Below are positions 51,055 through 54,265 of a stretch of 64,000 nt of DNA, in pieces. The stretch spans positions 1-64,000 of the forward strand of contig PWHV01000018.1 in assembly GCA_003555025.1 (NCBI GenBank), given 5' to 3'. A program made the translations under genes and the position numbers. The stretch comes from Methanomassiliicoccaceae archaeon (lineage in GTDB: Archaea; Thermoplasmatota; Thermoplasmata; Methanomassiliicoccales; Methanomethylophilaceae). Positions within the stretch are counted from its first letter, which is position 1, and the number at the start of each line of letters is the position of its first letter. Under the pieces are notes generated by a model. It was not told the DNA's origin. It made no database searches and saw only the letters and a list, made by a program, of their open reading frames with translations.

Positions 51055-51966
51055 CTACACGTGGTCCAACCAATCGGCGTAGCGCTCGTCGCGGCCGGTG
51101 ACCACCTCATGGAAGGCTTCCTGCAGCTGCCGCGTCACCGTGCCGGGCACGCCGTCGCCCACGGGGCGGTGGTCGATCATCGTAACCGGCGTTATCTCCG
51201 CCGCAGTGCCGGTCATGAACGCCTCATCGGCGGTGTAGGCCTCGAGGCGGGATATCTCCGTCTCTATCATCTCGTAGCCCATGTCCCGGGCCAGCTGCAT
51301 TATGGAGTTGCGGGTTATGCCCTCCAGTATGCTGTCGGTGGTCTTGGGGGTGTAGAGCTTGCCGCGCTTGAGGATGAATATGTTCTCGCCGCTGCACTCC
51401 GCCACGTTGCCCTGGGCGTTGAGCATCAGCGCCTCGTTGGCCCCCTGCCTCACCGCCTCCATCTTCGCCAGGCATGAGGTCACGTAGATGCCGTTGACCT
51501 TGGCGCCGGCGGGGGCGGCCATGTTCCAAGGGCGCTTCCAAGAGGAGGTGGCTAGCTTGGCCCCCTTCTCCTGTATCTCCTTGCCCAGGTATGAGCCCAT
51601 ATGGATGGCGGTTATGGTCACACTGACAGGCACGCCGATGGGGTTCAGCCCCACCCACTCCCCGCCGAGGAAGGCGCAGGGCTTGAGGTAGTCCACCTCC
51701 CCGTTGACGCGGACGGTCTCCCTCACCGCTTCGCATAGCTCCTCCTGGCTGTAAGGCATGTCGAAAGCCATCACCTTCGCCCCGTCCATGAAGCGCTTCA
51801 TGTGGTCCTTGAGGCGGAATATGGCCTTGCCGTCGCTGTTGGGGTAGACCCTGAGGCCCTCGAAGACCCCCGTGCCGTAGTTCAGAGCGTGGGCTAGCAC
51901 GTGAACATGGGCGTCATCCCAGTCCACGAACTCGCCGTTCATCCATATCTTCTCGGTTGGCTTCAA
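51055..51966 (-). CDS. ilvE: branched-chain amino acid aminotransferase
   Basis: The 303-residue class IV PLP aminotransferase performs the last step of Val, Leu and Ile synthesis. Family motifs: HALNYGTGVFEGLRVYP, the PLP Lys in GIYVTSCLAKMEAV, and EALMLNAQGNVAECSGENIF. The start is TTG at 51966 with GGGGGAGGA at ideal distance; the first ATG is nine codons later. It is the third gene of ilvB-ilvN-ilvE, 11 bases after ilvN. Confidence 0.94.
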   Translation of the reverse strand: MKPTEKIWMNGEFVDWDDAHVHVLAHALNYGTGVFEGLRVYPNSDGKAIFRLKDHMKRFMDGAKVMAFDMPYSQEELCEAVRETVRVNGEVDYLKPCAFLGGEWVGLNPIGVPVSVTITAIHMGSYLGKEIQEKGAKLATSSWKRPWNMAAPAGAKVNGIYVTSCLAKMEAVRQGANEALMLNAQGNVAECSGENIFILKRGKLYTPKTTDSILEGITRNSIMQLARDMGYEMIETEISRLEAYTADEAFMTGTAAEITPVTMIDHRPVGDGVPGTVTRQLQEAFHEVVTGRDERYADWLDHV

Positions 51967-51977
51967 ATGTCCTCCCC

Positions 51978-52340
51978 CTATAGCGCGTTGACCGTCTTGA
52001 TGTAGTGCTCGGGATCGGTCTTCTCTATGATCTCCGCGACCTCGTCGCGGCTGCCGATCAGACCGCACCATCCCTTGGAGGTCGATATGAGGGCGTACGC
52101 CGACTGCCGGGGCTCGTCGACTACCTCCACGGCGTCGATGTCCTGCAGTCGGCCGAGCCGCTCCACGGCGATGTCGGCCATCTCTTTGTTCAGGACCGAG
52201 AGGACTATCCTGGCCTTGCCAGGGACCTCGCACTTGCCGACCACTATGGTCTCCACGTTGATGCGCTTGCGGGTGAACTCGCCCATGATCCTCTGCATGA
52301 CACCGAACTCGTCTTTGACGATCATCGAGATGACTTCCAT
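51978..52340 (-). CDS. ilvN: acetolactate synthase regulatory-type small subunit (ACT domain)
   Basis: The 120-residue protein has an N-terminal ACT domain (EVISMIVKDEFGVMQRIMGE, RINVETIVVG) and a short C-terminal part. It is shorter than typical bacterial IlvH (about 160) but is placed directly after ilvB with abutting stop and start, so it should confer valine feedback on acetolactate synthase. It could also sense another amino acid. Confidence 0.8.
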   Translation of the reverse strand: MEVISMIVKDEFGVMQRIMGEFTRKRINVETIVVGKCEVPGKARIVLSVLNKEMADIAVERLGRLQDIDAVEVVDEPRQSAYALISTSKGWCGLIGSRDEVAEIIEKTDPEHYIKTVNAL

Positions 52341-54011
52341 CTAACAACCTCCATCGTAAGGGCAGGACCCGCGGTGGACGTTGCTGCCCGCCGCGGTCCT
52401 CAGGGTCAACGGGAAAATGTCCTCTTCCCTATTAATCTGTATGTCAACCAGGCAGGGCCTGTCGCTATCTATCGCCTGCTGCAGCGCCGGGGCGAGGTCC
52501 TGGTGCTGGTCGACGCGTATGGCCTCGGCGCCGAAGGACTCCGCCAGCTTGACCATGTCTATGCCGCTGAGGTCCTGGGCGGTGAGGCGGTCGCCATAGA
52601 ACAGGCGCTGGTGCTGCTTGATCATCCCCAGGCGGGAGTTGTTGAGCAGCGCTATCGCCACCGGGATCTCCTCCTTAGCGGCGGTAGCCAGCTCCTGGCA
52701 GACCATGGTGAAGCTGCCGTCGCCGGCGATGTCCACCACCTTGCGGTCGGGGGCGGCGATCTTGGCGCCGATGGCGGCCGGCAGCCCGAAGCCCATGCAG
52801 CCCAAGCCCCCGGAGGTAACGAAGCTGCGCTGGTCCTTGATGTCGAGGAAGTGTGCCGCCCACATCTGGCATTGGCCGACCTCGGTGACGATGACCGCGT
52901 CGGAGGGGAGGGCGGCGTCCAGCTCGTGGATGACCTTGCGGGGGCTGATAGGGTCCTCGCAGACGTCGATGTCGCAGGTGCAGCGCTTGATCATCTCCCC
53001 CGAGGTCTGCGACCAGTTGCTGGAATGCACCTTGAGGTTGATGGCTCCCTTGATGGCGGCCAGGGAGGCCTTGGCCTCGGCGGCGATCCCCAGGGTGGGG
53101 CAGACGTTCTTGCCCATCTCGGTGCGGTCTATGTCCACGTGTATGACCCTCATGCGGCAGGAGCTGGGCTCGCCGACGCTGCGGTCGCTGAAGCGGGCGC
53201 CGACCGCCAGGAGGACGTCGCAGTTCTCCAGGGCGTAGTTGGCGGCGGCACGGCCGTGCATGCCGATCATGCCCAGAACCAGGGGATGCGTATCGGGGAC
53301 GGCCCCCTTTCCCATGAGGGTGGTGACGATGGGCGCCGCCAGCTGGTCCGCCAGCGCCAGGGCCTCGGGCCCGGCCCCCGACCAGCTGGCCCCGCCGCCG
53401 AGCATGATCAACGGCCGCTCCGCCTGCATGAGCATCTTGGCGGCGACCGAGACCTGGTCTTTACTGGGCTCCAGAGGGGCCTCCGGCAGCGGCGTGGGCC
53501 GCGGCGGCACGCCGTCCTCGCGTGTCAGGACGTCCTTGGGAATGTCTATGTGGACCGGGGCGCAGCGCCCGGACATGGCAATGCGGAACGCCGAGCGGAA
53601 ATCCGTCGCCAGGGTGGACGGGTCGGTGACGCGGAAGTTGTGCTTGGTGATGGGCATCATCAGGCTGAAGATGTCCGCCTCCTGGAACCCGTCGGAGCCC
53701 AGCACATTGGTGGGGACCTGCCCGGTGACGGCTATCACCGGCGAGGAGTCCAGGTAGGCGGTCGCCATGCCGCTGACCAGGTTGGTGGCTCCCGCTCCTG
53801 ATGTGGCTATGCACATGCCGGGGGCTTTCTTGATGCGCGCGTAGCCGTCCGCCATGTGGGCGGCCCCCTGCTCGTGGCGGACGAGTATGTGCCTTATGTC
53901 GGACTCCAGAAGCTCGTCGTAGAGCGGCAGCGTCGCCGCTCCCGGTATCCCGAACATGACGTCCAGACCCTCGGACTGCAGAACATCGACTATAATCTCA
54001 GATCCTCTGAT
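52341..54011 (-). CDS. ilvB: acetolactate synthase large subunit
   Basis: This thiamine-diphosphate enzyme has about 556 residues and joins two pyruvates, or pyruvate with 2-oxobutyrate. The catalytic Glu is in ILVRHEQGAAHMADGYAR, with the ThDP motif GDGSFTMVCQELATA. Family proteins begin Met-(Lys/Arg)-Gly-(Ser/Ala)-Glu; here RGSEIIVDVL is preceded by ATC (54011-54009), six bases after a perfect GGAGGT. No ATG, GTG or TTG stands there. An in-frame TTG at 54047 (behind AGGA) is the conservative alternative and would add 12 residues. Upstream lie hairpins and a leader ORF. Confidence 0.92.
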   Translation of the reverse strand: MRGSEIIVDVLQSEGLDVMFGIPGAATLPLYDELLESDIRHILVRHEQGAAHMADGYARIKKAPGMCIATSGAGATNLVSGMATAYLDSSPVIAVTGQVPTNVLGSDGFQEADIFSLMMPITKHNFRVTDPSTLATDFRSAFRIAMSGRCAPVHIDIPKDVLTREDGVPPRPTPLPEAPLEPSKDQVSVAAKMLMQAERPLIMLGGGASWSGAGPEALALADQLAAPIVTTLMGKGAVPDTHPLVLGMIGMHGRAAANYALENCDVLLAVGARFSDRSVGEPSSCRMRVIHVDIDRTEMGKNVCPTLGIAAEAKASLAAIKGAINLKVHSSNWSQTSGEMIKRCTCDIDVCEDPISPRKVIHELDAALPSDAVIVTEVGQCQMWAAHFLDIKDQRSFVTSGGLGCMGFGLPAAIGAKIAAPDRKVVDIAGDGSFTMVCQELATAAKEEIPVAIALLNNSRLGMIKQHQRLFYGDRLTAQDLSGIDMVKLAESFGAEAIRVDQHQDLAPALQQAIDSDRPCLVDIQINREEDIFPLTLRTAAGSNVHRGSCPYDGGC

Positions 54012-54018
54012 GATAACA

Positions 54019-54054
54019 CCTCCAAAAGATGGGAGGACCGCCGGCAACGGCGAT
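54019..54054 (-). promoter_or_regulatory. two leader hairpins, second masking the ilvB ribosome-binding site
   Basis: In RNA sense, hairpin A is AUCGCCG (54054-54048), loop UUGC, CGGCGGU (54043-54037), seven pairs including one G-U. It directly abuts hairpin B: CCUCC (54036-54032), loop CAUCUUUU, GGAGG (54023-54019). The 3' arm of B is the ilvB Shine-Dalgarno. Both follow the leader ORF stop by one base. If translation starts at the TTG at 54047 they would instead be inside the coding region. Confidence 0.5.
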
Positions 54055-54055
54055 C

Positions 54056-54148
54056 CTACATCACTACTACAGAGCGCACGCTGCGGCCGTCGCAAGTGAT
54101 GACGGGCAGGTCTCTCTGTATCATCACAGCCAAAATGATTATGCTCAT
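54056..54148 (-). CDS. putative branched-chain-amino-acid-rich leader peptide of ilvBNE
   Basis: A 30-codon ORF from ATG 54148 to TAG 54056 lies 45 bases before ilvB. Thirteen of 30 residues are Ile, Leu or Val: residues 3-6 are Ile-Ile-Ile-Leu and 27-30 are Val-Val-Val-Met directly before the stop. It uses ATA twice, GTA twice in a row and TTG once, all uncommon codons in this GC-rich window. A TATA-like GATAAAATA (54156-54148) touches the ATG; if it is the promoter, initiation near 54126 would allow a leaderless start at codon 9 (54124). Another TATA-like box near 54208-54220 would include the whole ORF. Composition resembles bacterial ilv leader peptides; it may be fortuitous. Confidence 0.4.
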   Translation of the reverse strand: MSIIILAVMIQRDLPVITCDGRSVRSVVVM

Positions 54149-54265
54149 ATTTTATCCTTTGTCCCCGTCCGCGGCCGCCGCCGGCTGAGAATCGTTGGCA
54201 CCAATTAATATATTGTAACGACATGGCTCAGCCAGCCCCGCAGGCCGGGGGCGGAGGGATGCCGT

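Follow-up and report, generated by a model that had tools for sequence, protein, structure and literature searches.

The ilvB-ilvN-ilvE operon on the minus strand of the window (the whole 64-kb stretch of DNA analysed), which comes from an archaeal genome of 1.4 Mb, is preceded by a short ORF ending in branched-chain codons, and sequence comparison strongly supports the presence of a branched-chain-amino-acid leader peptide upstream of this archaeal ilvB. That the leader is a sensor of amino-acid supply is well supported. We consider it likely that the leader forms part of an attenuator sensing branched-chain aminoacyl-tRNA, with a translational output favoured over transcription termination, and that leuA carries a leucine-specific version. 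By the same reading, taken as a whole and equally likely, Thermoplasmata would control ilvB and leuA through ribosome-mediated attenuation by amino-acid-specific leader peptides, with neither terminator nor antiterminator, the leader ORF of ilvB beginning at the 5' end of the mRNA and that of leuA lying within a long-range stem.

The features of the region are collected in Table 1. The gene assignments of an earlier sequence-only reading hold by profile matches, with ilvN below cut-off; the ilvN-like ORF is short, and the IlvN models matched it only at that level. The 30-codon ORF singled out by that reading (MSIIILAVMIQRDLPVITCDGRSVRSVVVM and a stop, 54148-54056 of the minus strand, with 13 Ile/Leu/Val codons and its end 44 nt upstream of the ilvB start at 54011) is present as described, down to the Val-Val-Val-Met before the stop at 54058-54056, but the leader does not begin at 54148. 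The ATG there overlaps the TATA box and is ACG in an 88%-identical congener, and the ATG at 54124 is kept in 6/6 class-A orthologues, giving a leader of 22 codons. The first eight codons of the longer ORF (MSIIILAV), and with them the Ile-Ile-Ile-Leu stretch, lie outside the leader in the TATA box and promoter region. Since the first base of the TATA box stands 30 nt upstream of ATG 54124, transcription is expected to start at or next to that ATG. At least four V/L/I/M codons among the last five were found in 5/333 short ATG ORFs of the 64-kb window, so the tail of the leader is not rare in this genome alone, and it is the comparison with relatives that makes it convincing. TAG terminates 17/55 long ORFs of the window, and the leader UAG therefore looks like an ordinary stop; a pyrrolysine reading of it was rejected on this ground and because the frame between leader and ilvB is not constant.

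Table 1 Features of the ilvB leader region and operon in the window
Feature	Position	Strand	Remark
BRE-like AAAGGA (54160-54155) and TATA box TAAAATA (54154-54148)	54148..54160	(-)	spacing to leader ATG
Leader ORF MIQRDLPVITCDGRSVRSVVVM and stop, 22 codons, 3' end GTA GTA GTG ATG TAG	54056..54124	(-)	ORF kept in all orthologues
Hairpin 1:2 inside leader ORF	54068..54120	(-)	54120-54100 pairs with 54091-54068, up to first Val codon
Control codons GTA GTA GTG ATG (Val-Val-Val-Met), abutting stop	54059..54070	(-)	relatives almost all V/L/I here, codons varying
Hairpin 3:4 (H1), AGGATCGCCG / CGGCGGTCCT, beginning inside UAG stop	54034..54057	(-)	present in all 45 loci
Post-hairpin motif CATC (order-wide [CG]AUYG)	54028..54031	(-)	order comparison
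Shine-Dalgarno GGAGG of ilvB	54019..54023	(-)	7 nt upstream of AUC start
ilvB, acetolactate synthase large subunit	52341..54011	(-)	TIGR00118, 638.6 bits, cut-off 538
ilvN-like small subunit, 120 aa	51978..52340	(-)	TIGR00119 match below curated cut-off
ilvE, branched-chain aminotransferase	51055..52005	(-)	TIGR01122 and PRK06606, both above cut-off

The start codon of ilvB, placed by homology in the alignment, is AUC (54011-54009). Class-A ilvB genes have AUC in four genomes and AUU in two, 7-8 nt downstream of GGAGG, and AUG, UUG, GUG or CUG occupies the aligned position in other families. Judging from these alignments, ilvB appears to be initiated at AUC or AUU, a rare start conserved over evolution and shared by the six class-A genes (those of the window and of G001-G003, G095 and G008) across several genera. 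The TTG at 54047, offered earlier as an alternative start, is not conserved: it is absent from the congeners (among them Methanomassiliicoccaceae archaeon CSSed10_308 and CSSed10_161R1), and in three of the congeners the ilvB frame, followed upstream, offers none of the codons ATG, GTG and TTG. A second ilvB (G000 contig 25, about 4109, L163) adjoins ilvC, has an ordinary ATG start and lacks the leader; different regulation of the two acetolactate synthases is therefore probable.

The ilvB genes and upstream regions of 147 genomes of the order yielded about 45 loci with the leader layout, in the conserved sequence TATA box, leader ORF, hairpin at the stop codon, ribosome-binding site and ilvB. 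The six class-A orthologues (G000-G003, G095 and G008) have leaders of 21-23 codons (MIQRDLPVITCDGRSVRSVVVM, MKQRDLPVLIRGDGSVRSALVVM, MTEVNPLPSILSKCSGCVGLVVL, MTKGFPSPSILSEGSGSVGLVVL, MKESYLSPSFLAVGSVGSVVL and MYRSNADNSSFSFSVVAFLVL, each followed by a stop), and in families f2, f3, f5 and f6 essentially every assessable ilvB is preceded by an ORF of 20-26 codons with a V/L/I tail, for example MSSISTHRSVFSLLGVVVVLIR, MNAALIFVNSSLLVSVQVLVV, MTTRSDRRIVSSIRAVVIIIS and MRTNITCSVAPQTLLGTVIVVLC, again before a stop. The alignment of upstream regions that had been proposed as a check bears out a conserved V/L/I-rich ORF, in which codon choice varies and the residues stay constant. A TATA-like box lies 27-36 nt (mostly 29-32) upstream of the leader ATG or GTG in about 41 of the 44 assessable loci, a spacing of some 30 nt that suggests leaderless transcripts, and the leader stop lies 47-69 nt upstream of ilvB. 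Over the 45 loci, V, L and I make up 0.69 of the last nine codons when these are read in frame; either other frame gives 0.18, and the remainder of the leader 0.26. Leader stops were picked within a set interval by V/L/I content, a selection bias that is partly offset by the independent checks of TATA spacing, hairpin position and ilvB copies without leader, which mostly reach 1-4 of 10, compared with 4-8 for copies with one. No leader was found at the second ilvB or at the ilvB of the family's host-associated genera.

Sensing of amino-acid supply by the peptide is best evidenced by the match between its residues and the pathway of the downstream gene. In the same genomes the leuA leaders are Leu-rich (MRHNKMICLLLLLH and MGHSSNIWDLLLRLLSAPLL; MVDVHDVPDILLL in the window's own genome, all before a stop), and the upstream regions of trpE and hisG contain no such leader ORF, nor was a leader recognised at other LeuA-family paralogues (L195-L213). 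At the leuA loci (L194, on G000 contig 26 at about 30192, and L185-L193) the leader ORFs are enclosed by a long-range stem, in which the 5'UTR pairs with the strand just upstream of the leuA ribosome-binding site (own -21.6 vs swapped -15.6 kcal/mol, P = 5e-5). A motif of the post-hairpin type pairs there with the leader start codon.

Two hairpins accompany the ilvB leader. In the window, the leader region has a fold z of -2.3, and the hairpin that abuts the stop codon (54057-54034) has 10 bp, -17.6 kcal/mol and a z of -4.1. This post-stop hairpin comprises 8-14 bp in 45/45 loci and sets in at the G of UAG, or about 5-6 nt past the first base of UGA or UAA. Its 33 distinct arm pairs include at least two Watson-Crick types at each of the first eight stem positions, and the arms pair better with their own partners than with swapped ones (-15.4 vs -10.4 kcal/mol; 0/20000 permutations as good). 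In the 1:2 pairing, roughly the first nine leader codons are paired with the control-codon region; it is likewise specific (own -20.4, swapped -15.4 kcal/mol; 0/20000 permutations), but in the f3 class-A group alone it did not exceed within-group controls. When all pairs of seven regions were compared, only 1:2 and 3:4 were specific, overall and within groups. Permutations of pairing over the loci gave no conserved alternative (2:3) antiterminator pairing (own -6.54 vs permuted -6.55), and by modelling and permutations neither the 3' arm of the hairpin nor the control codons paired with the ribosome-binding site above chance. In the window's order this site lies 10-20 nt past the hairpin, and in the models its accessibility does not change consistently and the hairpin does not hide it. 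No U-run follows the hairpin in this order, which makes an intrinsic terminator unlikely. Directly past the post-stop hairpin, all members of the order have NNN[CG]AU[UC]G, and CAUUGC occurs also in the leuA leaders; pairing of the CAUYG motif with the ilvB leader start codon was not significant (P = 0.10).

A sample of 400 genomes extended the pattern to other orders of the class. Families f8, f24, f13 and f22 have V/L/I leaders about 30 nt past a TATA box and a hairpin at or around the stop, with specific 1:2 pairing (-23.0 vs -18.2 kcal/mol; 0/20000 permutations). In f13 the 3' arm of the hairpin runs straight into the ribosome-binding site (CGUUUCAGGGAG) and appears to hide it, as expected for translational control. 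A terminator-like element was seen in f18 (L283 and L284) only: there a G+C-rich hairpin and T6 come after a 34-codon V/L/I leader, about 120 nt upstream of ilvB. In f27 no leader pattern was seen. In f8 and f24 (L244-L261) the leaders share the C-terminus LGVLVDLRIxRP before the stop, so that more than the V/L/I codons is conserved, and the stop is part of a long stem; it is conceivable that this leader is a true arrest peptide. Outside the class, possible leader ORFs stand upstream of ilvB in the Nitrososphaerales (L088 and L084), one of them, MPRADSEHWHKVHVLVLLRLA and a stop, 29 nt past a TATA box.

We propose the following series of steps for ilvB. Transcription would start at the leader AUG, and the first ribosome would load on the transcript's bare 5' end and translate the 22 leader codons. 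When charged Val, Leu and Ile tRNAs are plentiful, the ribosome would pass quickly, both hairpins would close and ilvB would be expressed poorly. When they are scarce, it would stall at the codons just before the stop and hold hairpin 1:2 open, and because the last V/L/I codon is only about 1-5 nt from hairpin 3:4, its leading edge could melt this hairpin as well. The landing area for ribosomes on ilvB, whose weak AUC or AUU start needs good access, would thereby be freed, and the output of ilvBNE would rise.

We infer an output on translation, and the same sensor acting on transcription is a possible but distinctly less probable arrangement. Here the stalled ribosome would shield the nascent RNA from an FttA/aCPSF1-like termination factor, as in tna-type attenuation and with no need of an alternative hairpin, or the hairpins would set a polymerase pause. 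The lack of conserved 2:3 or arm to Shine-Dalgarno pairing would fit such a switch without alternative RNA folds, and the G+C hairpin with six T behind the f18 leader resembles a terminator, but the window's order has no U-tract, the 3' arm in f13 meets the ribosome-binding site and the weak start codons of ilvB point to control at the level of translation. Another form of translational control was put forward by the sequence-only reading, in which a CCUCC/GGAGG stem hides the ribosome-binding site of ilvB and stalling exposes it. We think this very unlikely: the letters exist in this genome (CCUCC at 54036-54032, GGAGG at 54023-54019), but part of CCUCC lies inside the first hairpin in the predicted fold, CCUCC occurs only in this genome among the orthologues (relatives have CCUCU or, in two, CCAAU), and shuffling the freed 3' arm makes no significant difference to how well it hides the site (0.427 for the arm itself, 0.424 when shuffled, p = 0.88). 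Of the two abutting hairpins of that reading, the strong one at the stop codon stands and the second, whose stem is not conserved in relatives, was not confirmed.

Two further explanations dispense with sensing by the ribosome. A conserved uORF that lowers ilvB translation, or couples to it by reinitiation, would suit a stop 47-69 nt upstream of a weakly started gene, and leaderless ORFs are efficiently translated in archaea; such a uORF is nevertheless improbable, as it leaves the residue specificity (V/L/I at ilvB, Leu at leuA, none at trpE or hisG) unaccounted for. There is scarcely any likelihood that the conserved RNA is an element binding a protein or ligand and the V/L/I-rich ORF incidental. 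The two conserved hairpins and the unexplained [CG]AUYG motif would agree with a binding element, but changes in the nucleotides and hairpin letters have left the frame, the start position and the V/L/I tail intact, and none of the Rfam 15 families (riboswitches, T-box and leader elements) matched at or above the gathering score. The attenuator with translational output is the reading we retain; the earlier proposal of a leader-peptide attenuator is upheld as to the leader, by its class-wide conservation, and amended as to its start, its length, the Ile-Ile-Ile-Leu stretch and the CCUCC/GGAGG stem.

Leader-peptide attenuation is a textbook mechanism of bacteria. The clustered codons of the regulated amino acid that mark the E. 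coli trp/ilv-type attenuators are present here, whereas their 2:3 antiterminator and U-run terminator are absent in the window's order. The erm and cat translational attenuators respond to antibiotics and have a hairpin that hides the ribosome-binding site; here, too, a stalled leader ribosome would open a hairpin in front of the gene, but this hairpin ends 10-20 nt before the ribosome-binding site, except in f13. Leader peptides of bacterial ilvB and leuA are well known (PMC10272879, PMC1262725). The Corynebacterium ilvB-II motif (PMC10272879) shares with the present leader a short Ile/Leu/Val-rich ORF with an AUG or GUG start upstream of ilvB and a hairpin after or around it. It differs in having a terminator with U-run and an antiterminator, neither of which was found here, where moreover the host is archaeal and the promoter sets the 5' end at the start of the ORF. 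The actinobacterial LEU element at leuA (PMC1262725) likewise combines a leader ORF containing a run of Leu codons with RNA structure near the leuA ribosome-binding site, but its Leu codons pair with the Shine-Dalgarno box, whereas here the 5'UTR and the start codon pair upstream of the ribosome-binding site. In Streptomyces, changes of leader codons were without effect on regulation in work cited in PMC1262725, a warning from bacteria that we count against the attenuator reading.

For archaea, uORFs of unknown role have been reported in Haloferax and Methanosarcina, and among open-licence full texts we found no precedent for an amino-acid leader peptide; a paper of 2021 still maintained that no target of archaeal transcription control other than promoter recruitment was known (PMC8448881). 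If true, our reading would mean that archaea, too, read aminoacyl-tRNA supply via the translating ribosome, by a leader system that spans the class, has covariation behind it and serves two biosynthetic operons. It would also supply a natural reporter for the stalling of archaeal ribosomes and for the coupling of transcription with translation, and the conserved AUC/AUU starts would become a case open to testing.
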